The notes under the pieces: generated by a model | Seen by the model: the letters and a program-made list of their open reading frames with translations, nothing else | What the model was told of the DNA's origin: nothing | Database searches by the model: none | NCBI RefSeq assembly: GCF_903645315.1 | Contig: NZ_CAHJXL010000001.1 | Span: forward strand, 2,945,501-3,009,500 | Direction: 5' to 3' | DNA from: Victivallis sp. Marseille-Q1083 | GTDB lineage: Bacteria; Verrucomicrobiota; Lentisphaeria; Victivallales; Victivallaceae | DNA: 64,000 nt | Shown: piece by piece, positions 1 through 58,475 of the stretch | Layout: the number at the start of each line of letters is the position of its first letter | Numbering within the stretch: position 1 is the first letter of the stretch | Made by a program: the position numbers and the translations under genes

Positions 1-940
1 CGTTGGTCCAGTCTTCCTGCGGCATCAGGCAGAGTTGAATGCCTTCGGTCTCATTGGCGGCCAGGCTGAGCCGCCCCGGCGTCTTGCCGTCCAGGCCCTG
101 TTCGGGGAACACCCGGGTGATGCCGTCCGCCCAGGCGGTCAATACGCCATCCGGCGAAGCGGCCAGTTCCGCCTGCGCGGCGATCAGGCCGCGCAGCCGT
201 TCCAACTGCGGCAGCAATGACTGCAGCGCCACCTGCGCGGTATAACGCGGCGACGGCGCCCCGGCCTGTTTGAAGTCCGCCAGCGCCTCGGCATAGGCGG
301 TTTCCACCGCTTCCCGGCGCTGCTGCAGTCCGGCGTCCGGACTGGCCGGCTGCCGGAGTGATTTTTCATAAGGGGTTTGCCATTCCGCCGCGGTTTTCAG
401 GCGCTCCAGGTGCAATGGACCGTGCAGCGTCAGGTCGGCGAAACCGTATTGGCGCGGTTCTTTCGGGTCGGTCAGGAAGAAATGAAGCTCTTCGACCGGC
501 AGCTCGGTGGTCAGGCGCCGATTGACCGGCAATGTCACGGTATTCCAGCCGGGGGATAATTTCAATGGCAGGTATGAACGGCTGCCGCCCTGGTTCAGGA
601 CGCACAATTGCAGGGTGTTGTCTTCGGTTGCCGCCGGGTTGTAAATTTTTACCGTCAGGCGGTCGTACAGAATCCAATTCTTCTCCGGCAGCGCTTCCCC
701 GCGCAGAATCAGCGCCGGCCAGCGCTCTTCCCCGGCCTCGTAATCGACCAGGAAGCCGGCCGGCGCCTGATCGTCGTCCGTTGCCATCAATTCGCCCTTC
801 GCCGCCCGCAGCGAAAGTTTTTCAATTGCGCCCGGCGACCGGAAATCATTGAGCACCAACGGATCTTCCGCCTGCAAAGCTCGCAGGGACACTGCCCCGG
901 CAATCATCGTCAGCAACACCGCCAACCACCATCGTTTCAT
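1..940 (-). CDS. Exported GH123/DUF4091-like glycoside hydrolase, C-terminus beyond window
   Basis: The reading frame is open from the ATG at 940 to the left edge (313 codons), so the C-terminal part is missing. The start has a GGGAGA ribosome site about 9 nt upstream and a signal peptide (MKRWWLAVLLTMIAGAVS). Residues about 28-180 look like a beta-sandwich carbohydrate-binding region. Around residues 290-305 the motif LAANETEGIQL resembles the entry to the DUF4091/GH123 fold, as in the complete proteins at 54361-56640 and 21970-24486 here. The catalytic Asp-Glu pair would lie outside the window. It follows the pseudopilin at 1094-1795 on the same strand, separated by a strong hairpin. The family assignment rests on that N-terminal resemblance only. 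Confidence 0.6.
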   Translation of the reverse strand, partial: MKRWWLAVLLTMIAGAVSLRALQAEDPLVLNDFRSPGAIEKLSLRAAKGELMATDDDQAPAGFLVDYEAGEERWPALILRGEALPEKNWILYDRLTVKIYNPAATEDNTLQLCVLNQGGSRSYLPLKLSPGWNTVTLPVNRRLTTELPVEELHFFLTDPKEPRQYGFADLTLHGPLHLERLKTAAEWQTPYEKSLRQPASPDAGLQQRREAVETAYAEALADFKQAGAPSPRYTAQVALQSLLPQLERLRGLIAAQAELAASPDGVLTAWADGITRVFPEQGLDGKTPGRLSLAANETEGIQLCLMPQEDWTN

Positions 941-954
941 AGTCTTCTCCCATG

Positions 955-988
955 TTTCATGAAAATTACCGTCGGAAACGAGTCCGAC
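955..988. repeat. Short inverted repeats upstream of the GH123-like gene
   Basis: TTTCATGAAA is a perfect 10-bp palindrome at 955-964. GTCGGA/TCCGAC is a 6-bp inverted repeat with a 6-nt loop at 971-988. Both lie between the pseudopilin-end hairpin and the ATG at 940. They could be operator half-sites or RNA hairpins; neither role is shown. Confidence 0.3.
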
Positions 989-1000
989 TGTATTGTATTG

Positions 1001-1047
1001 CCAATTCGGACGAAAGCAAGAACGATCTCTTGCGATGTCCGAATTGG
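1001..1047 (-). other. Strong intercistronic hairpin after pseudopilin A
   Basis: CCAATTCGGAC at 1001-1011 pairs with GTCCGAATTGG at 1037-1047 (11 bp, perfect), and an inner GCAAGA/TCTTGC stem adds 6 bp. It starts 46 nt after the pseudopilin stop on the minus strand. No T-run follows it, so a stabilising or processing hairpin is as likely as a terminator. Confidence 0.7.
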
Positions 1048-1093: not shown

Positions 1094-1795
1094 TCAATTG
1101 GTGTATTCCCTGACGACGCCGTCGACCACCAGCGTTGTGAAGTCGAGGTCGCGGAATTGTCCGACGCTCTGGGCTTCGGCGTGGCCGTCGGCGAAAGCGA
1201 TATTGCCGGTGCTGCCGTGATTGAGGCTGGCCGCCGCATTTTCCGACGTGGCATAGGGATAGAAATTGAAGTGTCCTCTGCCTTGCTCCGCCCCGGAAGC
1301 GATGAGGGTATCGGCGAGAAGCGGAGTTTTGGTCGGCTGTTTCATCCGGGAAAGAGCGTAAAAAGCGTAATACCAGCTTGGATTGCCGAACATGGCGAAA
1401 TCACCCCAGTTTTCCTTGTATTTGTTATAGAAAGTCAAATCGTCCTTCAAATTGAGGACGCCGTAAGTCCGGAAGGGTCCCCGCCAGTCGTTCTCGTAAT
1501 CGACTTTCTGAACCGAAGGACAGAAAAAAACCGACTGGTCGACGTACTTGTTCTCATTCAGCGCCTGGTTCCAGGTCAATTCGATTTTTTTGTCGTAGAA
1601 ATAGACCAGCATGATGTCCTGGCTGTCGTTGGCATAAAGTTGAGTGCCGAGCATGTTCTGCTTCAGATTGTTGAGGCAGGTGATGCTCAAAGCCTTCTGT
1701 TTGGCCTTGCCCAAGGCCGGCAGCAGCATGCTGGCAAGAATCGCAATGATCGCAATTACAACCAGCAACTCGATCAGCGTAAACCTCTTCTTCAT
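1094..1795 (-). CDS. Type II secretion-type pseudopilin with H-X9-DG motif (cassette A)
   Basis: This 233-residue exported protein starts [17 protein letters not shown], the class III prepilin signal: a short basic leader, Phe at mature position 1, Glu at position 5 and a hydrophobic helix. The C-terminal third carries [12 protein letters not shown], an exact H-X9-DG motif known from planctomycete and lentisphaerate prepilin-like proteins. The residue before the expected cleavage site is Arg, not the usual Gly. The start has a GGAG ribosome site. A near-consensus promoter lies upstream at 1994-2022, and a GH123-like gene follows on the same strand. The likely role is a cell-surface or secretion-system minor pilin, possibly matched to that enzyme; this is inference. 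Confidence 0.9.
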
Positions 1796-6892: not shown

Positions 6893-7564
6893 TTACGGGA
6901 TATCGAGTCCCAGCACCGGATAATAGGACAGATCGTACAGGCGCTGCTGCGGCTCGATGGCCTGCCGGAATGAAAATCCTTCACAGTGTCCGTCGACAAA
7001 AGCGACATTGAGATAGTTGCTGTGGCGGAACGCCGTGTCCGGCCAGCCGGTGAACCGCTGGTTCCACAGCCCCGGCCAGCCGTGACCGTTTTCGACATCG
7101 CTGTACAGAAGCGCCTGGGTGGGATTCTTCACATTGGAGAGCTTATACGGCTGGCAGGTGACATAAGCGTTGGCGGTATCATCCCAGCTTCCGCCAACCC
7201 ACATATTCATGCCATAGGTATAAAAAGTTCTGTTGCCGGAATAACTTGGACACTCCATCGCCGCATGGTCACCCTGCTTGTAAGTGTTCCAGGCGACAAT
7301 TTTGACTCCCATGTAATCTGCCAGTTGTTCAAACCAGTCACCATTGGAACCCCAACTGTAATAAACAAGTGCTTGCGGTGCCGAATCATTGTTGTCATTG
7401 GCGTACATGTTGGTCGCCAACCCCAGCTGTTTGAGGTTGCTGGTGCATTTGATCGCCACCGCCTTGGCTTTGGCCTTGCCCAGGGCCGGCAGCAGCATAC
7501 TGGCGAGAATCGCGATGATAGCGATTACGACCAGCAGTTCGATCAGTGTGAATTTCTTTTTCAT
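6893..7564 (-). CDS. Pseudopilin with H-X9-DG motif (cassette B)
   Basis: This 223-residue protein starts [17 protein letters not shown] and carries [12 protein letters not shown] near the C terminus, the exact H-X9-DG spacing. The residue before the predicted cleavage site is Lys. The start is set by GGAGG 9 nt upstream. Only 18 bp separate the start from the 15-bp target duplication of the IS at 7598-9202, so its ribosome site survived but its link to the upstream repressor gene was cut. With the IS and one duplication removed, the gene begins about 34 nt after the repressor stop, as an operon partner. It may now depend on a promoter within the IS or on read-through across it. Confidence 0.9.
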
Positions 7565-7582: not shown

Positions 7583-7597
7583 TAGGGTTGATTAATG
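7583..7597. repeat. IS target-site duplication, left copy
   Basis: TAGGGTTGATTAATG directly abuts the left inverted repeat and recurs exactly at 9203-9217. Confidence 0.9.
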
Positions 7598-9202
7598 TGC
7601 ATTCTGCGAAATACATTAAATTATTTATTTTTAACTATTTACAATGCATTGAAATTTGAAAAATCCTCCAACTGAAATTATATTGTAATCTTCTAGCAAT
7701 CAAAATCATAACTCCAGAAGGAGGAATAAAAACCAATGCAACTATCTTTATTCTGCGATTATCGCGGGTACGCCAACTCCAAATACGAGAGCCTGTTTCT
7801 TGCGCTGGAAGAATCTCATACTAGTGTCGCTAAGAAGAAAGGTCCTGGTCGTATCGGCTATGGAGATTTGGCTTACCTCAAAGCATACGTTTACAAGCAC
7901 GCGGAGGAAATCAAAAGCATTCCGGAGCTCTTGCGCAATCTGCAACGGAATCCGGTGATCTGCGAAATGATCGGTTTCCAGTATGATTCGCTGCCGGACT
8001 CGTCCCGTTTTTATACATTCCTGAGCAAGACAAAAAACTCCGAAATCCAGGCGATTCATCATGCGGCGGTTCAGTCGCTGATCGGCGGCGGCGTGGTTTC
8101 GCTTGACGTCCTGATCGTCGATTCCAAACCGGTCATGGCCAATACCAAGCACAACAATCCCAAAAATCCGAGTCGCTCATTGGATAAAGAGGATAAAATC
8201 CCCCGCAATCCCAAAGCGACTCTCGGCTATTATTCTTACTTGAAACAGCCATTCGGCACGGGCAAGCAATTCAGCTTTTTCTGGGGCTTCCGGACGCACG
8301 TATTGGTCTCCGAAGAAGGCGTTCCGCTGGTCGAAATCACCAAGCCGAACAACATCTCCGACGAACAGATTGCGCACTCGCTCTTACGCAAACTCAAACG
8401 GGTCTACGGACAGAAGAAAGGCCGAGTTTTTATCGCCGATTCCGCCTATGACCACCGCCAATTCTACGACTTTATCAAGGACGAAATCAAAGGCCAAGCA
8501 TGCATCCCAATCAATCCGCGCAACCAGCAAGCGGCCAAACTTCTCGGCGAAAAAGGCTGTCCCATCTGTCCCGGCGGACTCGAAATGAAATATTCATGCA
8601 TCACCAAGAGCGAAGGCCGCACCCGCAAGAAATTCCGCTGTCCGATCATCGCCGGAACGCGCCCGGAAAAAGCCGAATTACCTGGCCAATGCCCTTGCAA
8701 TCATCAACGATTCTGTACCGGCAGCCGCTATGGCTGTACCGCTTACATCGACGTTACCGATGATGCACGCGCCCAGGTCCCGCGCCAAAGCGCATGGTAC
8801 AAAGAGACTTATACCAAACGTACCGGCGTCGAACGCTATTTCTCGCGCCTCGGCTCGCGCGAGGTCGAACAGACCACGCATTTCAATTACCGAGCCATCC
8901 GCAACCAGATGAGCATTGCACATCTGACGCTCGCGCTCACCGCCGTCGCCGCCGCATTCATTCTCGAACAGCCGGACAAAATCCGCTGTTACAAATCGTT
9001 TGCTGACGCCGCATAGCTTCGCGATAATCTCAAATTTTTCAATCAACCCCGGCGAATTCACATCCGCCTTAATTCTTCACGCCTTTTTTCAGCGATTTTT
9101 TACCCAATTCTGCACCAACTCGTACTGTTTGCTTGTTTTCAAAGCTTTTGCCGGTGGCTCAAACTGCTTCCTGTTCACTTTTCCTCTATTTCGCAGAACT
9201 CA
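7598..9202 (+). mobile_element. Insertion sequence, 1605 bp, 16-bp inverted ends, 15-bp target duplication
   Basis: The ends are TGCATTCTGCGAAATA (7598-7613) and its partner TGAGTTCTGCGAAATA read inward from 9202 to 9187, matching at 14 of 16 positions. Both are flanked without a gap by the same 15 bp (7583-7597, 9203-9217). A single DDE transposase gene fills the interior. The exact duplication and intact gene suggest a recent insertion. A 15-bp duplication is longer than most DDE elements make. Some groups (IS1634-like, IS1202-like) make long ones, but I cannot place the family without a search. Confidence 0.92.
7736..9016 (+). CDS. DDE transposase of the IS (IS4/IS5-like fold)
   Basis: This 426-residue transposase is the only gene of the element. 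The DDE triad is visible: Asp about 129 in LIVDSKPV, Asp about 235 in FIADSAYDH, and Glu about 368 in YTKRTGVERYF. The last block resembles the Y-x2-R-x3-E signature of IS4-type enzymes, though the expected following Lys is Gly. A Cys-rich insert (CPICPGGL and further Cys pairs, about 282-340) lies between the second Asp and the Glu and may bind zinc. The start has AAGGAGG about 11 nt upstream. No frameshift or stop interrupts it, so the element may be active. Confidence 0.92.
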   Translation: MQLSLFCDYRGYANSKYESLFLALEESHTSVAKKKGPGRIGYGDLAYLKAYVYKHAEEIKSIPELLRNLQRNPVICEMIGFQYDSLPDSSRFYTFLSKTKNSEIQAIHHAAVQSLIGGGVVSLDVLIVDSKPVMANTKHNNPKNPSRSLDKEDKIPRNPKATLGYYSYLKQPFGTGKQFSFFWGFRTHVLVSEEGVPLVEITKPNNISDEQIAHSLLRKLKRVYGQKKGRVFIADSAYDHRQFYDFIKDEIKGQACIPINPRNQQAAKLLGEKGCPICPGGLEMKYSCITKSEGRTRKKFRCPIIAGTRPEKAELPGQCPCNHQRFCTGSRYGCTAYIDVTDDARAQVPRQSAWYKETYTKRTGVERYFSRLGSREVEQTTHFNYRAIRNQMSIAHLTLALTAVAAAFILEQPDKIRCYKSFADAA

Positions 9203-9217
9203 TAGGGTTGATTAATG
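9203..9217. repeat. IS target-site duplication, right copy
   Basis: TAGGGTTGATTAATG, identical to 7583-7597. It begins one base downstream of the repressor stop codon (9221-9219, minus strand). Confidence 0.9.
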
Positions 9218-9218: not shown

Positions 9219-10349
9219 TTACATCTCGTCTGTTCGGTTATCATGGGACCAGCCGGTTGAATTGCCGGTGATAATTTGCGGCGGTAAAAAAATCCTTTCC
9301 GAAGGCAGCGGCCGTTTCCAGCGGCAGTAATCGACGATCCGGCTGATCATTTCCCGGCCGATCTGCCGGAAAGGCGGCGTGACGCGGCTGCAGATCGGAC
9401 AGACCGACGAGGCGCCGATGTACATGAAATCGATTTCCCGGCCGGGCTGCAGGTTCAATTTCGAAACCGCATTGTATAAAGGCTCCAAATGATCGCTGTT
9501 ATAGAACAGGAAGTCAGGCTTTTCCCGCCGCAGGAATGCGACAATCTCGTCCTCCGCTGCCACCACCGGAAAAGGCACCTCCTGCAGCGCGCCATCCGGC
9601 ACCGGCAGACCGGCGGCTCTTCCCAGCCGGCAGTATTCCAGCGTCCGCCAGTGCAGGAACGGCACATCGTCCGACGTTCTCGGCACTGCGATGCAGCCGC
9701 ACTTGCGGTAGCCGCGCGACTTGATCGTGTCGACCAGGCATTCGACCAGTTCCCGGTCGCTGTAGCCGACCGCCAGTTCAGGCTCGCGATATTCCGCCGG
9801 CGCCCCGAATTGAACTGTCGCCACCACCGCCACCTCGTTGGCGGCAACGGAACGCAGCTTGCGCCGTTGGTCGCCGTAGAAGATTGCCGCGTCGTAGCCG
9901 GCCAGGCGCTGCAACTGCCCGTTCAAGGCGAAATTGTCTTCCGCTTCCGGAAAATATTCCAGATGGATGTGGGTGTTGTGCGCAATCCCGACTTCCAGCA
10001 TGCCGCGGTAGATCTCGGTGTTGGCGTGCCAGTTGCCGACCGGCAGCACTTCCGGCAGAATCCCCACTTCCGGGAAAACCAGGATCACCCGCAGCGGCTT
10101 GTTGTCCACCGTATTGCTCCGGCTGACGAAAACCCCTCTGGCCGGCTCCCGGATGATCAGGCTGTCCTTCTCCAGCAATTCCAGCGCCTGGTTGACTACC
10201 CGGTCGCTGATCTTGAACTCCCTGGCCAGCACGCGAATGCTGTCGAGCTTCTTGCCGGCCGGATAACGGCCGGAGGAGATGCGCTCGAGCAGAATCTTAT
10301 AGAGCTGCTGGGGCAGTGGCGTCGATCGGTCTTTCTGCAATACTTCCAT
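9219..10349 (-). CDS. GntR-type HTH / LacI-type sensor repressor (cassette B)
   Basis: 376 residues. Residues about 8-75 form a GntR-like winged helix (PLPQQLYKILLERISSGRYP, then a recognition-helix region ending in GVFVSR). Residues about 85-365 look like a LacI/periplasmic-binding sensor that would bind a sugar. A near-consensus promoter with a palindrome just downstream suggests autoregulation. On the same strand downstream stood pseudopilin B and the GH42-like gene before the IS separated them. The palindrome also occurs at cassette A, so this protein may control both. Ligand unknown. Confidence 0.85.
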   Translation of the reverse strand: MEVLQKDRSTPLPQQLYKILLERISSGRYPAGKKLDSIRVLAREFKISDRVVNQALELLEKDSLIIREPARGVFVSRSNTVDNKPLRVILVFPEVGILPEVLPVGNWHANTEIYRGMLEVGIAHNTHIHLEYFPEAEDNFALNGQLQRLAGYDAAIFYGDQRRKLRSVAANEVAVVATVQFGAPAEYREPELAVGYSDRELVECLVDTIKSRGYRKCGCIAVPRTSDDVPFLHWRTLEYCRLGRAAGLPVPDGALQEVPFPVVAAEDEIVAFLRREKPDFLFYNSDHLEPLYNAVSKLNLQPGREIDFMYIGASSVCPICSRVTPPFRQIGREMISRIVDYCRWKRPLPSERIFLPPQIITGNSTGWSHDNRTDEM

Positions 10350-11938: not shown

Positions 11939-12262
11939 TCATTCTTCAAAACAGCACCAGAAACACCGGTCGAGATCGACATTGCCGTTGGGACGGAATG
12001 CCACGTTTTCCCGCCGGAGCAGAGCGGCCTGTTCCGGCCAGCCGGGCGCGCAGCGGCCGGCGGCATTGACCACCCGGTGACAGGGCAGTTTCAGCTTCGA
12101 CGGCGCTTCGCGCAGAAATTTGCCGACCAGCCGGGGATGTCTGGGATGACCGGCCAGGAAGGCGAGTTGTCCATAAGTGGCGACCCAGCCCTGCGGAATT
12201 ACCTTCACCAGAGCATAGACCTGCTGCCGGAACTCTTCCTGTACCATCGGACTTCCACTCAT
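11939..12262 (-). CDS. MGMT-family / alkyltransferase-like DNA repair protein
   Basis: About 107 residues covering only the DNA-binding, active-site domain of O6-alkylguanine methyltransferases: VPQGWVATYGQLA type helix-turn-helix entry and the PCHRVV motif with the acceptor Cys. Alkyltransferase-like proteins are also this short but usually carry Trp in place of that Cys, so this one may still transfer alkyl groups. The ATG at 12262 overlaps the stop of the upstream repressor (TGATG), implying coupled translation; a GTG at 12265 and an ATG at 12244 are alternatives, the last with a GGAAG site. Coupling to a sugar-type repressor is odd. Confidence 0.75.
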   Translation of the reverse strand: MSGSPMVQEEFRQQVYALVKVIPQGWVATYGQLAFLAGHPRHPRLVGKFLREAPSKLKLPCHRVVNAAGRCAPGWPEQAALLRRENVAFRPNGNVDLDRCFWCCFEE

Positions 12263-13305
12263 CACTGCCGGGAAGGCGGCTGGGTGCTCGCTTTGAACAG
12301 GCAGGAAGTCGGCAGCAGGATTTTCTGCGGCTCGCCGGAGCGGGCGAGCAGCTCCAGCGCCCGGCTGATGCTTTCCTTGACCGGCAGCACGACGGTGCTG
12401 ATTTCGTCGCCGCCGTGCTCCATGCCGCCGAGCGCGGCGATGCTGATATCCTTGCCGACCTGGTAGCCGGCCGCGGTGAACGCCTTGGCCAGTTTGGCGG
12501 CGTAATAGTGCTGGATGAGCAGGACGGCGGTGCAGTTCCGGTAAATTTCGTCGAGCAGGCTTTTTTCAAAAATAAAATCGTGGACCAAAATAAGCTTGAT
12601 CAGACGGTTTTCGACATAATGACCGTGGCGGTGCAGCATTTCGGCATAAGCCGCCAGTACGGTCATGCACGGGATGATGTCCTCGTCCATGATCATGATT
12701 TGGCGGTGTCCGAGCTCGAACAGATGCGCCAGCATGGTCCGGACGCCGCCGGCGAGATCGGCGTTGATGCAACTGAACGGCCCGCCCTGCAGCCAGAAAT
12801 CGTTGATGATGACTGTATTGATCGATTTTTCCTGCAGCAGCTTCCAGATTTCCGGCTCGTTGGTGACCGAAAACGGAAACCGGATCATGTCGTGGCACGG
12901 CACCGCCGGCAATTGCCGGATGAAGGCGGCTTCGCCGGTGCCGTCGCCGATCAGCGGCCGGATGTTCCGCTCGGTCAGTTGATGCGACAGTTCGGCGAGC
13001 ATCGAGACGTGGAGCGGATTGTAACTGGAGTGCATCGGAAAGGCGACGGTCCGCAAGCCGCCGGGCTGGCGGCGGTCGGCGACGAAGGTGCCGACACCGT
13101 TGCGGCGGACCAGATGCCCTTTGTCGGCCATCTTCAGCAGCGCCAGATTGACGGTGGCGAGCGAGACGCCGTAGCGGTCGGCCAACTGCCGGTTGACCGG
13201 GATGCGGTCGCCGGGCTTCAGCCTGCCGGATTTGATCTGGCCGACCAGATCGGCTTCCACCCGGTCGGTACAGCGAATTTTCGGATTTTTAGTCGGTGTC
13301 GCCAT
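12262..13305 (-). CDS. GntR-type HTH / LacI-type sensor repressor upstream of cassette C
   Basis: About 347 residues. The frame is open to 13374, but that start lies inside the promoter, so the ATG at 13305 (MATPTKNPKIRCTDRVEADL) is preferred. Residues about 15-80 are a GntR-like winged helix (DRIPVNRQLADRYGVSLATV); the rest is a LacI-like ligand domain. It is divergent from pseudopilin C (13786), with about 480 bp between, and could control that cassette. Its stop overlaps the MGMT-like gene. Confidence 0.83.
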   Translation of the reverse strand: MATPTKNPKIRCTDRVEADLVGQIKSGRLKPGDRIPVNRQLADRYGVSLATVNLALLKMADKGHLVRRNGVGTFVADRRQPGGLRTVAFPMHSSYNPLHVSMLAELSHQLTERNIRPLIGDGTGEAAFIRQLPAVPCHDMIRFPFSVTNEPEIWKLLQEKSINTVIINDFWLQGGPFSCINADLAGGVRTMLAHLFELGHRQIMIMDEDIIPCMTVLAAYAEMLHRHGHYVENRLIKLILVHDFIFEKSLLDEIYRNCTAVLLIQHYYAAKLAKAFTAAGYQVGKDISIAALGGMEHGGDEISTVVLPVKESISRALELLARSGEPQKILLPTSCLFKASTQPPSRQ

Positions 13306-13785: not shown

Positions 13786-14535
13786 ATGAAAAAGTGTTTT
13801 ACATTGATCGAATTGTTGGTAGTAATCGCTATTATAGCAATTCTTGCCAGTATGTTGCTGCCGGCATTGGGCAAGGCGAAAAGCAAAGCGCTGGATATCT
13901 CCTGCCGGAGCAATTTGAAGCAGCTCGGTTTGCTCAATGTGCTGTATATCGACGACTACGACGGCTGGGCGATGTCAGCGCGGATTCCGAGAGCGGGGCA
14001 GGCGAACAGTTGCTGGGGTGCGTCCGTCTGGAGTGTGACGCTCGCCGAAGATTACGGCGCGGCCGGCAACCTGTTTGTCTGCCCCGCCAGCTCGGGCAAA
14101 TGGGATGAGGATGACATTGCCCATGGAAATCAAAGCATCGGCCTGTCGTTTAATACGTTCGGCTATGGTATTGGGCACGGCGGCCAGAATCCGGTGAAAT
14201 TTGCCGCTCCCGGCGAATTGTCGCATGGTTCCTCGCCGGTTGTTTTCGCCGATACGCCCTCGCATCTGGAATTCAACAGCGACAAAGCCGCCGGCGCGTA
14301 TTTTGCGGCGGAAATCATAACCGACCGGGACGACATCGACAATGCGTTCTGGCCGATGCTCGGCAGCGGAGACGGGGGGTATCACTGGTATCCGATGAGC
14401 AGCCGGCATAACCTGAGGGTCAATGTCGGCATGTATGACGGCAGCGCGACTCAGTTGATGCGCCGCGAGTGTGGCGCCAGGTACGTGGAGCTGTTCCGGC
14501 CGATTCAGGTGGATGGCTCGTGGAAATTTAATTAA
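13786..14535 (+). CDS. Pseudopilin with H-X9-DG motif (cassette C)
   Basis: 249 residues beginning [17 protein letters not shown]; the residue before the cleavage site is Cys. The C-terminal motif [12 protein letters not shown] keeps the exact H-X9-DG spacing. The start has AAGGAAAAG just upstream. Only 28 bp separate its stop from the following hydrolase gene, so the two should share a transcript. It is expressed from a perfect promoter and probably regulated by the divergent repressor. Confidence 0.9.
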
Positions 14536-14563: not shown

Positions 14564-16609
14564 ATGTTGTTCAAAAGAATATTGTTCCTCATATTGATGC
14601 CCGCAGTCGGCCTGGCGGTGAAGCCGGAGGATTTTTCCGGCTATAAGGCTGCGGTCCTGCCGCAGGTGAGGAAAACCAATCTGCTGGAAGATCCGGCGTT
14701 CAGCGATGTCGGCTGCTGGAAGGGGCTGCGCTCCGGGGTCGGCATTGAAAATGGCTGCGGCCGAAACCAGACAGCTGGTTTGAAGTACGATCGCACATTG
14801 CCGGATGAATACGTGATCTCCTATCAGAATGTAGTTTTGCAGCCCGGAACATCTTATCGTTTCGGAGTCTGGATCAAAACCGAAGGCGAGCTTGAAGGGG
14901 ATGGCGCGGCTTTGTGCATGGAGCACTACGACCGCAACGGCAGCTGGCGTTCAACCGCGCATTCCTCCTCCCGAGTAACTGATGCTTCTCATTGGCAATG
15001 GATAGAAGGGACGCTTGCCACGCCTCCGGAAGCGGAAGGGGAGTTGGTTTATCGCTTTTCCTGTTACATGATGAAAGGGACGACCGGACTGGCGTTTTTT
15101 GATGACGCGGTGGTCGAGGAGATCGCCGAATCCGGATGGCTTATTGCACAGACATGGCCGACCCATAGCGTTTGTCCGGCCTCCGACGGCAAACTCAAAC
15201 TCTCTTGCCTCAAGGCCGGAGACACCGGACGGGAAATCGTTTACGAAGAGCTGGTCTGCCTGGGACGCTTGTCTGTCGATGGCGGAGGAGTCGTGGAAAG
15301 GACGGCGGAACTTAATGCCAGTGGCTGCGTAACCTTGCAATTCGGCAAGCTTGCACCCGGCAGGGGAGAACTGGAAATAATCATTGCCGATCCGCAAAGC
15401 AGAAGTTTCATCGGGCGTCAGAAATGGCCTGTTTCCATCGAAGCGCGCGACAGCGCCGGAGTTCAGATTGATGAACATGGCCGTACCCTGGTAAATGGAA
15501 AACCTTTCATGCCGATCGGGCTTTACTGCTACGACCTGCAAAAAGAGGATTTGGATTGCATTGCCGATTCGGCTTTTAACACAGTGCTGCCGTATGGAAG
15601 TTTGGATTTGCGTTTCAACGGCTCGTCTTTCACGCATCGGGCGGCGATCCGCGAGGTCCTGGATTATTGTGAGCAAAAGGGTTTGAAGCTGATTTTCGCC
15701 TTGAAGGACCTTTTGCCGGCTCCGGTTGTTGCTTCGCCGGTTGCGGAGTGGAACGGGATCGAGGGCGGTGATGAAATTGTGAAACGGGTTGTCGAAAGCC
15801 TTGGCGACCATCCCGCCATTCTGGCGTGGTATATTTGCGATGAGGCCGATGTCAACCAGCTGGACACTCTTGTCGCCCGGCGGCGGCTGATGAATTGCCT
15901 GGATCCCTCGCGCCCATCGCTGGCGGTTTTCTACCAGATCGAATCCATTCCCTGCTATCTTCCCTGTTCGGACATTCTCGGTCTCGATCCGTATCCGATC
16001 GCCCGCAACGCCTGCAACCAGATGACGGTGGTCGAACAGGCTATGAATTGGGGTGAACGCTGCGGCATGCCGCTCTGGACGGTTCCGCAGATCTACAACG
16101 CCGGCCTCTACGATCCGGAGGTCCGGGAAGGCGATACCGCGAAGTTCTACCGGGAATACACCGACCCGACCGAACATCAGATGCTGGCGATCGTCCTGCG
16201 CGAAGTGATTGCCGGCGCCAAAGGTTTTATCTTTTATTCCTATTTCGACCTGCGGCCGGGCCGCGGTCCCGATTCGAAGCAATTCGAACGGCGCTGGCCG
16301 GAAGTCTGCCGGGTGGCGTCGATTCTGAAATCGCTGGAGCCGTTCATCCTGAGCACGGCGGCCGGACCGGCCGTGACAATCGAACCGCGCCGGGGGGAGG
16401 TACGGGCCCGCTGCCTGGCGGATCAGGCCGGCCGGCACCGGCTGTTGGTGACCGGCAACGGGCCGGGAAGGTCGGAGGCGCTGCTGGAACTGCCGGAAGA
16501 GTTCGGGTCTTTTCAATCCACCACCGGCAATACGGAAAATCTTGGCGGCGGCCGATACCGTTTTGCCGGGGAAAATATCTCGTGTGATTGGTTGATCGAA
16601 ACCCGCTGA
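14564..16609 (+). CDS. Exported TIM-barrel (clan GH-A-like) glycoside hydrolase (cassette C)
   Basis: About 681 residues. An in-frame start at 14471 exists, but the ATG at 14564 gives a clean signal peptide (MLFKRILFLILMPAVGLA) right after pseudopilin C. Residues about 35-190 resemble a CBM4/9-type jelly roll (LLEDPAFSDVGCWKG). From about 310 the motif VNGKPFMPIGLYCYD opens a GH2/GH5-like barrel, with ILAWYICDEADVN as the likely acid/base strand (Glu in CDEAD) and GFIFYSYFDLR near the barrel end. A paralogue with the carbohydrate-binding domain moved to the C terminus is at 37597-39618. Family and substrate are uncertain. Confidence 0.78.
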   Translation: MLFKRILFLILMPAVGLAVKPEDFSGYKAAVLPQVRKTNLLEDPAFSDVGCWKGLRSGVGIENGCGRNQTAGLKYDRTLPDEYVISYQNVVLQPGTSYRFGVWIKTEGELEGDGAALCMEHYDRNGSWRSTAHSSSRVTDASHWQWIEGTLATPPEAEGELVYRFSCYMMKGTTGLAFFDDAVVEEIAESGWLIAQTWPTHSVCPASDGKLKLSCLKAGDTGREIVYEELVCLGRLSVDGGGVVERTAELNASGCVTLQFGKLAPGRGELEIIIADPQSRSFIGRQKWPVSIEARDSAGVQIDEHGRTLVNGKPFMPIGLYCYDLQKEDLDCIADSAFNTVLPYGSLDLRFNGSSFTHRAAIREVLDYCEQKGLKLIFALKDLLPAPVVASPVAEWNGIEGGDEIVKRVVESLGDHPAILAWYICDEADVNQLDTLVARRRLMNCLDPSRPSLAVFYQIESIPCYLPCSDILGLDPYPIARNACNQMTVVEQAMNWGERCGMPLWTVPQIYNAGLYDPEVREGDTAKFYREYTDPTEHQMLAIVLREVIAGAKGFIFYSYFDLRPGRGPDSKQFERRWPEVCRVASILKSLEPFILSTAAGPAVTIEPRRGEVRARCLADQAGRHRLLVTGNGPGRSEALLELPEEFGSFQSTTGNTENLGGGRYRFAGENISCDWLIETR

Positions 16610-16633: not shown

Positions 16634-19051
16634 ATGTTGAAAATGAAAATAATGATGTGGTTGCCGGTGATGTTTGCCGGTCTGGCTGCCGTTGCCGCCG
16701 CCGATATCACCGGCCGGGTGACGGATGCCGACACCGGTGGGGGACTGGCGGGAGTGATTGTTTCCAATTGCGCGGAAGCGGCCGTCACCGATGCGGCCGG
16801 AGCATATGTGCTGCCGCGGCATGCCGACACGCGTTTTGTCACCGTCGTCACGCCCGCCGACCGCAGTGCGGAAACGTTTTTCCAGCGGGTAACGGTCGAT
16901 TCGGATACGAGTTACGACTTCAAGCTGCAGCGCCGGCCGAAATTCGATTCGTTCTGTTTCGTGCAAATGTCCGATACGGAGGCGGAGGGTTCTCCGGTCG
17001 TGATGGATTGTTTCGACCGGATCCGCCGCTTTGCCAGAAACTGCGGCGCGGCGTTCGTGATTCATACCGGGGACATTCACACCACGGAGGACATGCGCAT
17101 GCACGCCGCTTCCGTCAATCGCCGGGGATTCGGCCTGCCGGTCTACCATGTGCTCGGCAACCACGATTTGAAGTCGGAAGGGCGGGGCGAGGCTTTTTAC
17201 GAGGACACGCTGGGACCGATCTATTATGCTTTCGAGGAGGGAAATGTGCTGTTCGTCATTTTGCCGAAATACCTGGACGGCGATATGGCGCCGGGATTCA
17301 CCGAAACGGATGTCGCGAAGTACCTTCACAATCTGATGGCGCTGGTGCCGGAAACGCGCCCGGTCGTCTTCGTCAGTCATTATCCGGAAATTCTTGCCGC
17401 CGACGGCGTGGCCGGTGCCGGCACGCCGTATCCGACCGATCTGAAAAAATGGAACCTGAAGGGCTGGATTTACGGGCACACCCATTACAGCCGGGTTGCT
17501 TCGCTGCCGTTCGGACTGAAAACCTGGTCGAGCTGCATTTCCACCAAGGGAGGCGGTTCCGGTGAAGCGGCGAGCTATCGTTATTACCATGTGGCGGCGG
17601 ACGGAACGCTTTCTTCCCGCGTTGTTCCGATGTTTGTGGAGAAACTGCTGGATGTGCGCATTTCACCGGCGGCGGACGGCGGCGGTTATACGGTGGCTGC
17701 CGCTGCCGGTGATTCCAGCACCCTGATTACCGGACTTGAGATGATTGCAACCGGGACGGACGGCGAAAGTGAAAGGCTGGCGATGACGCGTCGCGGACCG
17801 TGGCTCTGGACGGCCGTCTACCCTTTTGAGCCGGAGCGCTCGTACACGGTTGAAGTGGTCGCGACGCTGAATTCCGGAGAGACGATCCGGAAGACCGTCC
17901 CGTTTCCGGCGCCGATTTCGCGGACGGCCTCCCTGGAACTTGAACGAATCGCCTGGTTTCCCGGTCATGTTCACTGGGGTGCGCCGGCTTTCGGCGACGG
18001 CATGATTTTTGCCGGCATCAACGATGACGACGACGGCACGAACAGCGGAATTGCGGCGCTTGATGCCGCCACCGGCCGGCTCCGCTGGAAATTGCCGGTC
18101 GCCGCCGGTATCCGCAACTCCGTCTGCTACGATGCCGGTACGGTATATGCCGCCGATACCGACTCCAATTTATATGCCGTGGAAGCGGAAACCGGCATCC
18201 TGCGCTGGAAGTCTTCGCCGGGGCCGGTTCTGTTCGATCATAAGAACAGCAACGGAATCGTGCTGGCCGACGGAATTCTCTATGGCGGCTTCGGCCGCTA
18301 TCTGCGGGCGGTGGAGGCCGCCACCGGCCGGGAATTGTGGCGCAGCGCCTTGTCCCAATGGGACCCGTCAACCGATCCGCCGCAGGTGATCGACGGCAAA
18401 CTGATCATTTCGAATTCCGGGCATGGCTGGATACTGGCGGCATTGGACGCCGCCACCGGGAGCTTGGTGTGGAAACTGGAGCTGGATCGCTATCACTTCC
18501 AGGTGCGGACCAGCCGCCTGGCGGATGGCAATCTTCTGATGGTTTCGTCTGCCCGGTCCGCCATCGTGGAACCGGAGACGGGCAGGATGATTGCCGCCAC
18601 CTCGGAGGAGTTGGGCGGAGACGAACTGCTGTCGATGTCCGCCTCGGCTCCGCTGGTCGGCGACGGCCTGATTTATGTCGGCGTCGACTGGGAAGGGGTG
18701 GGCGCCTTCGATTTCCAATCGCTCCGGCGGCGCTGGACATCGGTGGAAACCGCCGGCGTTCCGGGCGTTTCCAGGCTGGCGACCCAGGTTTACAGCCGGT
18801 TGGAAAAGATTGTCGAATCCGCTCCATTGCTGCTTGGCAGTCGGTTGCTGTTCGCCGGCATGGATGGCGTTCTCTACGAATGTTCGGCTGCCGACGGCGT
18901 GCTTGAGGGCCGGCTTGACCTCGGTGTGCCGGTTAGCGCTTCCCCGCTGGTCGCCGCCGGCCGGGTTTATCTCGTGGATTATGCCGGGCGGGTATTCATC
19001 TTCAAGCTTCGCGGAGATTTGACGGCGGCCGGTGACTTTCGCCTGAAATAA
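16634..19051 (+). CDS. Exported phosphoesterase with regulatory-like N domain and PQQ-type beta-propeller
   Basis: About 805 residues. AGGA sits 6 nt before the chosen ATG at 16634; TTG 16619 and ATG 16628 are in frame. After the signal peptide comes a carboxypeptidase-regulatory-like fold (ITGRVTDADTGGGLAGV, about 25-90). A calcineurin-like phosphoesterase follows (about 110-330: HTGDIHTTED, LGNHDLK, SHYPE, YGHTHYSR). The C-terminal half (about 430-800) has repeated AxDAxTGxxxWK units, for example ALDAATGRLRWKLPV and ALDAATGSLVWKLEL, typical of PQQ-binding-like propeller blades. It lies 24 bp after the hydrolase, in cassette C. It may handle phosphorylated glycans or teichoic-type polymers; no substrate evidence. 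Confidence 0.85.
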   Translation: MLKMKIMMWLPVMFAGLAAVAAADITGRVTDADTGGGLAGVIVSNCAEAAVTDAAGAYVLPRHADTRFVTVVTPADRSAETFFQRVTVDSDTSYDFKLQRRPKFDSFCFVQMSDTEAEGSPVVMDCFDRIRRFARNCGAAFVIHTGDIHTTEDMRMHAASVNRRGFGLPVYHVLGNHDLKSEGRGEAFYEDTLGPIYYAFEEGNVLFVILPKYLDGDMAPGFTETDVAKYLHNLMALVPETRPVVFVSHYPEILAADGVAGAGTPYPTDLKKWNLKGWIYGHTHYSRVASLPFGLKTWSSCISTKGGGSGEAASYRYYHVAADGTLSSRVVPMFVEKLLDVRISPAADGGGYTVAAAAGDSSTLITGLEMIATGTDGESERLAMTRRGPWLWTAVYPFEPERSYTVEVVATLNSGETIRKTVPFPAPISRTASLELERIAWFPGHVHWGAPAFGDGMIFAGINDDDDGTNSGIAALDAATGRLRWKLPVAAGIRNSVCYDAGTVYAADTDSNLYAVEAETGILRWKSSPGPVLFDHKNSNGIVLADGILYGGFGRYLRAVEAATGRELWRSALSQWDPSTDPPQVIDGKLIISNSGHGWILAALDAATGSLVWKLELDRYHFQVRTSRLADGNLLMVSSARSAIVEPETGRMIAATSEELGGDELLSMSASAPLVGDGLIYVGVDWEGVGAFDFQSLRRRWTSVETAGVPGVSRLATQVYSRLEKIVESAPLLLGSRLLFAGMDGVLYECSAADGVLEGRLDLGVPVSASPLVAAGRVYLVDYAGRVFIFKLRGDLTAAGDFRLK

Positions 19052-24486: not shown

Positions 24487-24526
24487 TTCAATTGTAACTG
24501 GTTAAGATTGCTTGGCACGGAAGGCC

Positions 24527-24566
24527 CCCGCCGGAGACCGGAGCTTTCCGTCCGGTCTCCGGCGGG
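24527..24566 (-). other. Strong intercistronic hairpin after pseudopilin D
   Basis: CCCGCCGGAGACCGGA (24527-24542) and TCCGGTCTCCGGCGGG (24551-24566) form a perfect 16-bp GC-rich stem with an 8-nt loop. It starts 24 nt past the pseudopilin stop, and no T-run follows before the next gene at 24486. Confidence 0.8.
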
Positions 24567-24590
24567 CAGACGATGAAAGGCGATCCGTCA

Positions 24591-54355: not shown

Positions 54356-54360
54356 CACGT

Positions 54361-56640
54361 TCAGAACAGATTGTCTCCTTCCGGCTTTTCACGGAACAAT
54401 TTCACCTGTTCAATGACAATTTCATTGGCCGTGCGGCCGCGAAACATCCAGATTTCCAGTTCGTTGAATCCTTCTCCCGGCGCGGTGCCGGTCGGATTGA
54501 ATGGAAACGCCAACACGGCGCGGCCTTGTCCTTCCAGTTGCAGCTGCAGACCGTCGACGGCACCCCGGGGACCGTGAAGCTTCAGCATGGCCGAAGTAGC
54601 CTCGGTCATCGGATTGGACACCGTGAGCTGGATCCAGCGGTATTCGGCGGTGTCGCCGGTCAATTTCAGCCGGACATTCGGAAATTCGGTGGTCGTATCG
54701 AACCGGAACCCTTTGATCACGCTACCCGGCAAATCGAACATCGTCACTGCTGAGTCCTGCCACGGCCGGTAATATTCCTCCGCAAAACTGAAAACGGTCT
54801 CATGCCGCTGCCGGCCGCTGTCCGGCCAGTACTGCCGCGACAATTTCAATTCCTTTCCTTCCTTCCGTACCGTGACCGTCAGCCGAACCGGCTGCTCGAC
54901 CGGCAACTGGAACGCCGCCGCATCTCCGGTCAGTTCCAGTTCGGCGCCGGTAGCCGGGTCAGTCGCCTGCACAACCACGTCGCAATCCGGTTCGGCGACC
55001 ACCTGGTACTGCAGCAGCGTGCCTTTCGGCACCAGCCCTTCCGCCTGGGAGGCGATCAGGAAAGCATCCGGCCCGCCCTGTGCCATCGCAGTCAGTTCAT
55101 TGATGACATCGAGCCGCATCGTCTCCAGCGTTTCGATCTCCCGGTTGAATGAGGCCAGATCGGACGCGGAGCGATTGGTCACCTCGAATATGCGCCGTTC
55201 GGCCAAACCCGGATCGAGCTTCAAATTTCTCAGCACCCGCCGGCAAGCCTCTTTGTACATCGTCAGCAGATCGAAATCTTCCTGGCCCTGCTTGATCATT
55301 TCCAGCCGGATCGTCGGCACCGGGTCGTCATCGACCGTCTCGCCCGGATAGATCAGGTAGCCGTCGCCGTTGGCGCCGGGAAACGCCGCCGGATCGTTCC
55401 AGAGGTCCCGTTCGATATATTTTTCCTGGACCGGGTCCCATTTTTTCCAGATATTGATCGCCCAATACAAAGTACCTTCGATGCCGTACTTGGCTTGAAA
55501 AATCGACATCATCCGCGGGCTGATGCCGTCATCGTTGATGAAATATCCCGGATAGGGCGGCGGCGGAAACACACAGGTATACCACCACACCTGCTCGCCG
55601 CGCGCCTGCCGCTGCTGGTAATAATTCGGATTGTAACCGGCGACTATCGGACACCAGATATCGACCTTTCCTTCCAGTTCCTCGGCGGTGCCATTGTTGA
55701 TCGTCAGCAGGAAACGGACATCCGGCGCCAGTTTGTGCAGCGCGTCGGCGTAATCGGCACATTCCCGATAGCGTTCCCGGGGCGGTTCATCCAACGTGTA
55801 GACATAACCTTTGTCCAGCAGATTTTTCTGCCGCAGCCAATCGCACAATTCGACGAAACGCTGCGGATTGGCCGGGTCGTACGGAATACGGAAGCTGTTG
55901 ACAACCGGATTGTTCAAATATTTCTCAGCTGCCGGCGAATCCAGCGGTACCGGCAAATCATCCGGCGGCAAACGGTAGCGGAGCATGAAATCGTAAATGC
56001 GTTCATAGAGTTTTTGCAACGCCGGCGAATCTGGAGTGAGCCCGTACGGCGCGGCAAGCTGTTCGCCGCCCCAGATCGGAAAGGCGCTCCCTGCCGTCGG
56101 CGTATCGGGCAGATTCAGTGGACGGACATCGACGGAAACCGGCGTCGCATGAGTTTTGCCGTTCACGTCGGCGGTAATTTCCCCTCGGTAAATTCCCTCC
56201 GGAGTATCTTTCGGCACCTGGATATCGACATAAATGCTCTGCAGCATACCCGGCGCCACCGTAAAAGATTCGCCGCCATAAGCAGGCAGGGCATCCGGAT
56301 ACCAGGTCGGCGTTTTGATGAATTCCCGGCAGCAGATGTAATGGGCTTTGCGCAGTTGGATCGCCTCGGGCGTGATCTGGCGGCCGTCCGGGCCGTCCAG
56401 TGCGCTCATCGCCACCTTCGTCACCTGCAAGGGATCCGCCGTCGCCTTGAAAATCAGTTGAAAGGCCTCCGATTCGTTGCCGAGCGCCGTCAGTTCCACC
56501 GGCGCGGGCGTTCCCTGCACATCGGCGTCACGGGTGTATTTGCACATCATATTGGCGGGGAACACTTCGCTGTCGGCGGCGGCGAGCAGGCCGCCGCCCA
56601 ACAGGATGCCGCCCAACAGACAATGGAATAAGTTCATCAT
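54361..56640 (-). CDS. Exported GH123/DUF4091-like glycoside hydrolase (cassette F)
   Basis: About 759 residues. The ATG at 56640 (signal MMNLFHCLLGGILLGGGLLA) has GGGA 9 nt upstream; in-frame TTG/ATG at 56658/56655 overlap the pseudopilin stop. The N-terminal beta domain (about 30-180: ALGNESEAFQLIFKA) leads into the barrel. KGYVYTLDEPPRERYREC holds the Asp-Glu pair at the GH123 catalytic position, and WWYTCVFPPPPYPGYF, GTLYWAINIWKKW and IRLEMIKQGQEDFDLL follow as in the cassette D enzyme. A C-terminal beta domain covers about 600-755. GalNAc-releasing activity is plausible but unproven. Confidence 0.84.
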   Translation of the reverse strand: MMNLFHCLLGGILLGGGLLAAADSEVFPANMMCKYTRDADVQGTPAPVELTALGNESEAFQLIFKATADPLQVTKVAMSALDGPDGRQITPEAIQLRKAHYICCREFIKTPTWYPDALPAYGGESFTVAPGMLQSIYVDIQVPKDTPEGIYRGEITADVNGKTHATPVSVDVRPLNLPDTPTAGSAFPIWGGEQLAAPYGLTPDSPALQKLYERIYDFMLRYRLPPDDLPVPLDSPAAEKYLNNPVVNSFRIPYDPANPQRFVELCDWLRQKNLLDKGYVYTLDEPPRERYRECADYADALHKLAPDVRFLLTINNGTAEELEGKVDIWCPIVAGYNPNYYQQRQARGEQVWWYTCVFPPPPYPGYFINDDGISPRMMSIFQAKYGIEGTLYWAINIWKKWDPVQEKYIERDLWNDPAAFPGANGDGYLIYPGETVDDDPVPTIRLEMIKQGQEDFDLLTMYKEACRRVLRNLKLDPGLAERRIFEVTNRSASDLASFNREIETLETMRLDVINELTAMAQGGPDAFLIASQAEGLVPKGTLLQYQVVAEPDCDVVVQATDPATGAELELTGDAAAFQLPVEQPVRLTVTVRKEGKELKLSRQYWPDSGRQRHETVFSFAEEYYRPWQDSAVTMFDLPGSVIKGFRFDTTTEFPNVRLKLTGDTAEYRWIQLTVSNPMTEATSAMLKLHGPRGAVDGLQLQLEGQGRAVLAFPFNPTGTAPGEGFNELEIWMFRGRTANEIVIEQVKLFREKPEGDNLF

Positions 56641-56654
56641 GCTTTTTTTTCCCA

Positions 56655-57398
56655 TCAATTATGATTGTGGCGGCTCCATTTGCTGCCGGCGTAGTCCCCC
56701 CACCAGAGATTGCCGAGGTTACCGTCCAGGCAGGCCCGTTCGGTCGTCGCCCGGGAAGCCGGTCCGAGCCGGTACGCTGCGGCATGACCGTCCGCCCAAA
56801 CCAGATTGACCGCATTGTTATGCCGGAACCACAGGACGCCCACGCCGGCTGCATCGGCAGTCAGCATATAATTCCCTTTTTCGGTATTCTCGAAATTATA
56901 AACCGTATCGCCGTGCATGATCGTATTCGACGGCTGTCCGAGCCCGGATAGTTTGGCCGGCTCATTGCTGATTCTGCTATAGGGCAGGCTCATATCGAAG
57001 GTGGCGCCCAGAAAATAATAATTGTAACCGTAATCCACATAGTTGTTCCAGCCTGCGTACGGATCGCCGAGTTCCGATTTATCGACTCCCTGGGCGCTGG
57101 AACCCGGACAGAAAAAGATGTCGGCCGACCCCAGGTAGTTGCCGACCATCAGCAGCCCCATCCAGCCGATTCCCCCCCACGGAGAATCTTTGTAATTTAT
57201 CGAATGGACCGTCAGCGAATCATTGTTGTCTCCGGCATACATGATCTGTGCCAGACCGACCTGTTTCTGATTGCTGACGCATTTGATCGCCTGGGCGGCT
57301 GCCTTGGCTTTGCCCAGAGCCGGCAACAGCATGCTGGCGAGAATGGCAATGATCGCGATGACGACCAGCAATTCTATCAGTGTGAATTTTCTTGACAT
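56655..57398 (-). CDS. Pseudopilin with H-X9-DG motif, internal start within the LacI frame (cassette F)
   Basis: 247 residues from ATG 57398 ([19 protein letters not shown]), with AAGGAAG at an 8-nt spacing, so it has its own initiation signals. The frame continues upstream without a stop into the LacI repressor. Lys precedes the cleavage site. [12 protein letters not shown] is the H-X9-DG motif. A prepilin signal must be N-terminal to work in export, so the internal start is the likely functional one. Its stop overlaps the alternative starts of the GH123-like gene. Confidence 0.88.
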
Positions 57399-58475
57399 TT
57401 TTTTTACTTCCTTTTTGGTTGAGGATGTTGATTGATATTGATCTGGTTTCCTGATTTCCGGTTTCACAATTTGAGGAAAGACGGCGGAAGCGGATTCCTG
57501 CATCAGAGCCGCGACGATCTGTTCCAGAGGATGTTCCGCCGACAGGATCGGATAGATGCAGCTTTGGGCCGCGTGGGTATAGTTGAACCCGGCCAAAGCA
57601 ATCCTTCGACCGGTCCGCCGGTAATGCTCCAGCAGTACCGGCGCCGCGCCGACCGCAAATGCGTCGGAATAGAGAAAAATGGCATCGACATCCGGACATT
57701 CCGCCAGAAGGCGTTCGGCCGCCTGTTGGCCGCAGAGCCGGCTTTCGGTGAAAAAATTTCCACTGTGCCGGATATCGAACGGCAGCAGGTGCAGCATTTT
57801 CTTTTGAAGCGTCGTCCGGCCATACTCCGGAAACGCCCGGCACAGACCGAGGAAACGCTGCTCATCCGGATCGACCGCCAACTGAAAGAAAGCAATGTTT
57901 TTATATCCCTCCCGGCGCCACAGTTCGATCATCTCGCAAACGGCCCCCGCAGTATCCGAATAAACGCCCGCGTAGCCGGCCGGCAACGGCAGCGTTTCAT
58001 AATAGACGGTCATCCGGCCGTAGCGCCTGATCTCCCGGTCAAGTTTTTCCATTCCGAAAGGATGGCCGATGAAAATGAAACGCTCCACCCCGTAATCGAG
58101 CAGTTTCTGAATCCGGCGCATATTCTGTCCGGCATTGTGTTCCCCGCTGCAGAAATAACAGGAATAATCGAGCTCCTCGTATCGCTTGAACAAGGTCAGA
58201 ATGATCCGCTGAATGTGGTCATCCAATTCCATCTGATTCATGCTCAACACCGTGGCGACCGATTTCAACGGTTCGCCGCGCATGATTTTAACCCCGACAT
58301 TCGGGCGGTAGCCCAGTTCCCGGGCCAGTTTGCGTACCCGCGATTTATTCGCTTCCGAGCAAAAATCGACGGTCTTGTTGTTCAGAATCTGCGAGACCGC
58401 CGTCACCGAAAGCCCGGCATTTTCGGCAATCGTCTTCAGGGTTACCCGTTTCTGTTTGACATTCTCTACTTGCAT
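56655..58475 (-). CDS. LacI-family repressor in one open frame with the downstream pseudopilin
   Basis: One uninterrupted 606-codon frame. Residues 1-60 are a LacI-type helix-turn-helix ([20 protein letters not shown]), and about 60-340 a periplasmic-binding-like sensor. It aligns along its length with the neighbouring repressor 58642-59694 until [11 protein letters not shown]. The paralogue ends about 20 residues later, but here [20 protein letters not shown] runs straight into the pseudopilin start at residue 360. Either the repressor lost its stop codon, giving a 606-residue fusion beside a separately initiated pilin, or a sequence error removed a stop. A palindrome over the transcription start suggests autoregulation. 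Confidence 0.8.

Follow-up and report, generated by a model that had tools for sequence, protein, structure and literature searches.

Why do the genomes of Lentisphaeria contain so many pseudopilins? To our knowledge this is an open question. It is posed in compact form by a 64,000-nucleotide stretch of Victivallis sp. Marseille-Q1083, called the window here (contig NZ_CAHJXL010000001.1, positions 2,945,501 to 3,009,500, or G000:C1:2945501-3009500 in our numbering; the host genome measures 4.82 Mb in five contigs and is 99.7% complete). In it, pseudopilin genes with an H-X9-DG motif stand next to genes for repressors and for exported glycoside hydrolases. A first-pass annotation had counted seven pseudopilins in six loci, and all seven could be located. 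It had also placed an exported enzyme on the same strand at each locus, which agrees with the large one that we find downstream at 6/6 loci (after gaps of 143, 153, 28, 104, 11, and 14 nucleotides, nt), and a repressor at most loci, which is present at 5/6, the pilin at 1094-1795 being without one of its own. The enzyme classes fared less evenly: GH42 once and GH123 three times are correct (for the gene at 2-940 the catalytic domain lies outside the window); the label GH-A-like, given twice, is weak for 37597-39618 and comes from BLAST alone for 14564-16609, which has no Pfam or NCBIfam match.

Our results show that this arrangement extends over the whole genome. We evaluated 92 evenly spaced 20-kb stretches outside the window (1.84 Mb, of which 28,003 bases read N), which together with the window gave 1534 called genes. 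Gene calls and signal peptides come from our own scripts, with the same rule applied to control genes; the exported flag was set on 342 of 1463 non-pilin genes and includes false positives. The sample holds 64 pilins outside the window, found by an N-terminal motif, and the motif density scales to about 168 per genome. Furthermore, a profile of the seven window pilins matched 150/150 scored candidates, of 246 in the genome, which puts the number at 150 or more.

Directly 3' of a pilin, the next gene encodes a same-strand exported protein in 36/60 cases (mean of 11.6 and maximum of 21 in 2000 label shuffles outside the window), and one of at least 300 amino acids (aa) in 32/60 (mean 7.3, maximum 15). 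Directly 5', a LacI, GntR, or AraC regulator is found in 34/64 cases (mean 3.7, maximum 11). When tandem pilins are skipped, the counts are 37/59 for exported same-strand genes (33/59 for those of at least 300 aa) and 35/64 for regulators. The arrangement also has a direction: large exported genes lie downstream of 32/60 pilins vs upstream of 6/64, and regulators upstream of 34/64 vs downstream of 5/60. Around size-matched control genes, a large exported gene follows in 31/359 cases and a regulator precedes in 12/365 (Fisher 1e-14 and 9e-23). The first-pass annotation had proposed to compare the next same-strand gene with shuffled gene order, a check that is strongly passed in the host's own genome (32/60 vs 31/359 controls). 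Chance as the source of the cassette layout is excluded genome-wide, and the regulator is tied to the pilin as strongly as the enzyme is. Seen from the regulators, 18/28 GntR, 13/28 LacI, and 6/24 AraC genes of the sample and window adjoin a pilin. Median gaps are short, 55 nt between regulator and pilin and 57.5 nt between pilin and enzyme.

Not every pilin has both neighbors. Tandem pilins occur, as do pilins without an exported enzyme downstream: both neighbors could be read for 66 pilins, of which 19 combine a regulator with an exported protein of at least 300 aa, 16 have the regulator only, 21 the exported protein only, and 10 neither. Because most pilin genes adjoin a sugar-sensing repressor, an exported carbohydrate-cutting enzyme, or both, our data suggest that pilus subunits take part in the complex-sugar feeding of these bacteria. 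Pilin density is high in the window (7 vs an expectation of 2.2 in 64 kb; Poisson 0.008 if a single window is fixed beforehand). We considered and rejected the idea that the window is a special gene cluster; it is a rich part of a genome-wide pattern.

What are the neighboring genes? Pfam searches of 51 genes downstream of pilins gave GH123 (8), DUF4838 (6), DUF6259 (6), GH42 (3), CBM9 (3), and others; DUF4838 and DUF6259 we take to be glycosidase-like. Among 98 random genes no glycosidase family is found in the 25 commonest of 231 Pfam families, and among 60 exported genes more than three genes away from any pilin GH123 (2) and melibiase (1) appear in the 25 of 125 families shown; since all tallies give the 25 commonest families only (of 33, 231, 35, and 125), rarer glycosidases could be hidden in the controls. 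In the families shown, glycosidase types are the commonest downstream of pilins and rare among exported genes away from them. On the other side of the pilin, a Peripla_BP_3 sensor domain is present in 29/30 of the pilin-linked LacI/GntR regulators, 17 of which carry a GntR and 13 a LacI helix-turn-helix (HTH) domain.

The GH123 family can also be followed without gene calling. Genome-wide, 24/38 GH123 domains have a same-strand pilin at most 3.2 kb upstream and 3 have one downstream (random placement 1.8, maximum 7 of 2000); the 24 is a lower bound that uses the 150 profile-matched pilins. DUF6259 homologues have a pilin upstream in 7/8 cases with enough upstream sequence (of 10 loci). Similarly, the window's GH42-like enzyme is one of six paralogues in this genome (52-100% identity), and a pilin lies upstream of all six. 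As a side observation, the 38 GH123 domains of this genome compare with 6 in Victivallis vadensis.

The same layout is seen in V. vadensis and in a second family of the order, but hardly around the sampled pilins of other Verrucomicrobiota. In 400 kb of V. vadensis (G024, same family as the host) there are 24 pilins, with an exported gene downstream in 16/21 cases and a regulator upstream in 16/23 (shuffled maxima 10 and 8). In a genome of the other family (G053) both counts are 6/7, values that no more than 1 of 2000 shuffles attained. Numbers are very small for G046 (3/4 and 1/4), and the 40 kb examined of G057 contain no pilin. Matches of 29 downstream genes in relatives include the GH42, GH39, GH2, GH5, DUF4838, heparinase-like, and CBM9 families among others. 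A wider comparison used 80 named loci, which are the best of 396 relatives and thus selected, not random, with the taxonomic grouping assigned in this analysis. In these, an exported open reading frame of at least 500 aa lies behind the pilin in 21/36 cases in Lentisphaeria, 3/49 in other Verrucomicrobiota, and 2/5 in four unassigned loci. A regulator lies beside it in 15/36, 1/52, and 1/6 cases, respectively, a contrast between Lentisphaeria and other Verrucomicrobiota that may be exaggerated, as the regulator models were built mainly on the host genome. Finally, in a crude first look across 13 genomes, pilin and LacI gene counts are correlated more than genome size explains (partial rank r 0.67, p 0.012).

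What could such cassettes do? We think the chances are about even that they are substrate-induced operons, similar to polysaccharide utilization loci (PULs), from which a hydrolase is made together with an exchangeable pseudopilin that enters the fibers of a type II secretion system (T2SS) or of a type IV pilus. In each operon a repressor of the LacI or GntR type, equipped with a sugar-binding domain, would locally control two genes, one for the pseudopilin and, behind it, one for the exported glycosidase. The arrival of the cognate glycan or of one of its breakdown products would lead to joint production of the two proteins. The enzyme would pass the inner membrane by means of its signal peptide; the pilin would be processed by the single prepilin peptidase and join a T2SS or type IV pilus fiber, for which the genome has several sets of genes. 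At the cell surface it may then help to export, hold, or present hydrolytic activity. On this view the pilin would be an exchangeable module, tied to its operon by position and not matched in sequence to the enzyme family.

Local regulation, co-transcription, incorporation into a fiber, and a role of the pilin in export or capture are what we infer. The three things that speak here for a substrate-inducible operon are gene order, short gaps, and sensor domains. The operon reading as a whole is supported by the enrichment and its direction, the GH123 test, the GH42 and DUF6259 loci, the sensor domains, the short gaps, the replication in relatives, the machinery genes, and the sequence and predicted fold of the pilins. 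External support comes from a pseudopilin in an apparently alginate-upregulated operon of another Verrucomicrobiota bacterium, as given in the alginate section of PMC13274419.

The pilins fit this reading in their general build. All seven window pilins share the same N-terminus (ten letters, not shown), carry a literal H-X9-DG near the C-terminus, and pass the cut-off of the prepilin-type N-terminus model TIGR02532. The bare H-X9-DG pattern is also present in two non-pilin genes of the window. Of 71 pilins of this genome, 70 have Phe1 and 71 Glu5 (the latter being required by the search motif). Cassette pilins are about 200-260 aa long. The pilin at 13786-14535 is predicted to have a pilin-like fold, with a long N-terminal helix and a beta sheet, and the structural matches listed for this model are all type IV pilins.

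Known families describe these proteins in part. The H-X9-DG models TIGR04294 and PF07596 (DUF1559 / SBP_bac_10) combine an N-terminal pilin helix with a C-terminal H-X9-DG as the window pilins do, but they are sequence models, and the arrangement of regulator, pilin, and hydrolase is outside their definition. Four of the seven window pilins reach the 19-bit cut-off of TIGR04294 (H-X9-DG-CTERM), the other three being unlisted at E 0.01. For PF07596 (gathering score 23.3 bits) two are above (23.9 and 26.2), two below (19.9 and 21.5), and three have no match at E 0.01. TIGR02596 (Verru_Chthon cassette protein D) is, by its name, a pilin-type protein of a Verrucomicrobiota cassette; however, the window pilins score 20.6-24.5 bits vs a cut-off of 70, with the match confined to the N-terminal part. 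The T2SS pseudopilins GspG/H/I/J have the same N-terminus, and their machinery is encoded in this genome. In contrast to these, cassette pilins adjoin regulators and enzymes, are longer, have at least 150 profile matches, and lie far below the equivalog cut-offs (GspG 23-33 bits vs 88.85; GspH 25-28 vs 80).

Is there a filament system for these pilins? The genome contains four GspG genes and a gsp operon that reads GspD to GspK (names taken from order and N-termini, with only GspG, the ATPase, and the secretin identified by model), as well as 12 T2SSE-type ATPase and 11 secretin matches. Because T2SS/pilus machinery genes are present, a filament system for these pilins exists. Processing is a more difficult question. 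Prepilin peptidases usually require Gly (or Ala) at position -1. Among the 71 pilins of this genome, position -1 is Gly in 1, Ala in 1, Lys in 30, Asn in 11, Ser in 8, and Arg in 6, which departs from the canonical substrate. This result was unexpected, and it includes the T2SS-operon pseudopilins: at the sites of the order (17 GspG loci in 11/12 genomes, our own count; L276-L289, L291, L292) Gly is found in 7/53 and Ala in 3/53. Gly or Ala occupies position -1 in 57/57 pilins of other Verrucomicrobiota vs 6/43 of Lentisphaeria. Gly(-1) is mostly lost in this order, and judging from these residues it seems that the specificity of the prepilin peptidase has changed in this clade, or that the site is unused. 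The loss challenges a rule by which prepilins are recognized, and from it we would expect a prepilin peptidase of altered specificity.

Does each pilin serve its own enzyme? This was the proposal of the first-pass annotation, in which every pilin is a dedicated secretion adaptor that recognizes the adjacent hydrolase. The order of pilin then enzyme agrees with it, as does a within-genome correlation between pilin and enzyme similarity (Mantel r=0.26, p=0.0002; one of the 49 pairs used has a pilin-like protein in the enzyme position). Some recent duplicates also look co-inherited, and so does the pair formed by L275 of this genome and L267 of the Victivallis genus (enzyme 48%, pilin 46%). However, the correlation weakens once near-duplicate enzymes are left out (p=0.09), and a comparison across genomes, of 48 by 53 cassettes, shows none (r=0.003, p=0.39). 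Within the genome the best-matching pilin shares the enzyme family in 5/32 cases vs 3.0 expected; across genomes it has a homologous enzyme in 0/17 vs 1.3 expected. Pilins have even been swapped between enzymes that are 62-66% identical: the GH42 enzyme of L263 is that close to its three closest paralogues, and its pilin is only 33-34% like theirs. Across genomes the expected tracking of enzyme family by pilin sequence failed, and the one-pilin-one-enzyme proposal finds no support. Pilin and enzyme are paired in position, and recognition is not detectable in their sequences; we consider dedicated adaptors improbable.

The same lack of tracking would be expected if pilins followed the glycan. 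In that case the pilin could be a surface glycan-capture protein, a pilus subunit in a SusD-like role, whose variable domain would bind polysaccharide and would have no part in enzyme export. Pilins are indeed diverse beyond the N-terminus (mean column identity in the alignment 18%), and their link to sugar-sensing regulators is as strong as that to enzymes. Against glycan capture, no lectin-like fold is among the listed structural matches, all of which are type IV pilins in a limited second look, and the pilins do not clearly track regulators. Pilin and regulator similarity are correlated (Mantel r=0.28, p=0.003), but we take no support for tracking from this, as similar regulators (0.44 to 0.6) stand with dissimilar pilins and best hits agree in 3/31 cases. 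Glycan capture is possible, and we would call it rather unlikely.

It could also be argued that the pilins are largely passengers: duplication and recombination would spread a unit of repressor, pilin, and promoter, which drives enzyme genes by chance. The modules look shuffled, and there are tandem pilins, pilins with neither neighbor, and an orphan repressor copy linked to an insertion sequence (IS). Passengers should be given little credence for the following reasons. First, pilin frames are intact, and the H, DG, and Cys positions are conserved in diverged copies. Second, V. vadensis and a further family show the same order. Third, a pseudopilin belongs to an apparently alginate-induced operon elsewhere (alginate section of PMC13274419).

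Returning to substrate-induced operons with an exchangeable pilin, several observations weigh against them. Both neighbor types are present at only 19/66 pilins, and 10/66 have neither. A same-strand pilin directly precedes only 32/195 exported genes of at least 300 aa; a cassette pilin is therefore no general requirement for export. For 14/38 GH123 domains no upstream pilin is found among the 150 listed, and the best-scoring GH123 (a 551-aa frame) is without an upstream pilin. Any specific role of the pilin in export is weakened because pilins do not track enzymes. Lastly, as the canonical cleavage residue is missing from cassette pilins, their processing is only predicted.

How do the cassettes compare with known sugar-feeding systems? 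The cassettes resemble the SusC/SusD-type PULs of Bacteroidota in that each locus joins a local sugar-responsive regulator to an accessory surface component and exported glycosidases, and in that one genome has many such loci. They differ in that a pseudopilin takes the accessory place, often with one enzyme after it. A general Pfam scan of 30/45 window genes gave no SusC/SusD match; the genome as a whole was not searched for them.

A related arrangement is found in Verruconatronum alginivorum, where, according to the alginate section of PMC13274419, an operon with polysaccharide lyases that is apparently upregulated on alginate includes a pulG-like pseudopilin, for which the genome has 67 homologues. 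Another pseudopilin is upregulated too, with one proteome replicate per treatment (PMC13274419). The pseudopilin and polysaccharide lyases in one alginate-upregulated operon make this case similar to ours; a genome-wide cassette of repressor, pilin, and hydrolase is not described in that section (PMC13274419). Our limited literature search, which left subscription journals largely outside and did not target the loss of Gly(-1), found no description of such a cassette, and pilin and secretion terms do not occur in PMC6388578 or PMC10880615; a single passage matched in PMC6617341 is irrelevant here.

Taken together with the cleavage sites, a broader picture can be drawn tentatively, which we regard as less likely than not. 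Lentisphaeria may possess pilin PULs, scores of sugar-repressed operons each adding an exchangeable pilin to a shared T2SS/pilus fiber that is recomposed per glycan. This would be accompanied by a clade-wide change of the prepilin peptidase that made Gly(-1) dispensable and freed more than 100 leader sequences to vary. An appealing aspect of the tendency from repressor to pilin to glycosidase is that it ties pseudopilins to carbohydrate foraging, which makes the question of their abundance testable cassette by cassette. The cassettes also offer a route to substrates and new glycosidases in a lineage with gut members.

Table 1. Parts of the cassettes in the window, with associated features and the prepilin peptidase gene
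Feature	Position	Strand	Evidence
A' exported GH123-like enzyme, N-terminal part, continues past window edge	2..940	-	GH123_cat 65.7 bits at G000:C1:2944191-2944847, 865-aa open frame
A' H-X9-DG pseudopilin	1094..1795	-	motif, N-terminus, TIGR02532
A exported GH42-like hydrolase, about 1540 aa	2130..6791	-	Pfam GH42 57 bits, E 2e-15
A H-X9-DG pseudopilin	6893..7564	-	motif, N-terminus, TIGR02532
A IS element dividing the cassette between repressor and pilin	7597..9203, ends approximate	transposase 7736-9016 +	DDE_Tnp_1
A repressor, GntR HTH and sugar-binding Peripla_BP_3	9219..10349	-	Pfam GntR 47 bits, Peripla_BP_3 29 bits
B divergent repressor, GntR and Peripla_BP_3	12262..13305	-	Pfam
B H-X9-DG pseudopilin	13786..14535	+	N-terminus, TIGR02532, predicted structure
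B exported enzyme, GH-A-like by distant similarity only	14564..16609	+	BLAST group with 37597-39618
Gene after B enzyme, metallophosphoesterase fused to PQQ beta-propeller	16634..19051	+	Pfam
C GntR-like repressor, located 3' of enzyme	20778..22025	-	Peripla_BP_3 83.5 bits; GntR HTH 17.5 bits, under Pfam cut-off
C exported GH123 enzyme	21970..24486	-	GH123_cat 3e-20
C strong hairpin between pilin and enzyme, without U-run	24487..24590	-	-48.6 kcal/mol, z -5.2 vs 60 simple shuffles
C H-X9-DG pseudopilin	24591..25361	-	N-terminus, TIGR02532
D repressor, GntR and Peripla_BP_3	34613..35827	+	Pfam
D first tandem H-X9-DG pseudopilin	35986..36732	+	Pfam, TIGR02532
D second tandem H-X9-DG pseudopilin	36821..37585	+	Pfam, TIGR02532
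D exported GH-A-like enzyme	37597..39618	+	weak GH2_C/GH42
Sole prepilin peptidase (Peptidase_A24) found in genome	47519..48349	+	profile match
E exported GH123 enzyme	54361..56640	-	GH123_cat 8e-25
E H-X9-DG pseudopilin, own ATG and Shine-Dalgarno-like site	56655..57398	-	TIGR02532
E LacI repressor, frame open into pilin without stop	57399..58475	-	Pfam, frame reading
E LacI repressor, 73% identical to adjacent LacI	58642..59694	-	Pfam; ends normally

Two irregular reading frames deserve mention (Table 1). In cassette E the LacI repressor and the pilin (56655-58475) form one 606-aa frame without a stop. A fusion that acts as a membrane-tethered repressor was considered and is judged unlikely. 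The shared frame is probably an accident because the pilin has its own start site, and the linker looks like an ordinary spacer between regulator and pilin. No other unbroken frame of about this size exists around the 150 pilin matches. Apart from its 73% identical neighbor, this LacI has a best match of 37% identity in 60 related genomes. Two pilin matches show a frame of more than 1100 aa with one TGA. Stop-codon read-through from pilin into enzyme was rejected, as only 10/38 gaps are in frame, about the third expected by chance.

The IS element of cassette A has 97-100% identical copies in four sampled stretches. The same element lies between repressor and pilin in two different cassettes, the one in the window and one at L014 (about 2980-4589). 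A 98.5% identical copy of the element together with the GntR gene of cassette A is found at L058:3549-6226, with no pilin or enzyme beside it.

Finally, several gaps between pilin and enzyme contain strong hairpins, for example at 24487-24590 and 941-1093. Against simple shuffles, z goes down to -5.2, with a mean of -1.5 over 24 gaps. Such hairpins may determine how much pilin message there is relative to enzyme message.

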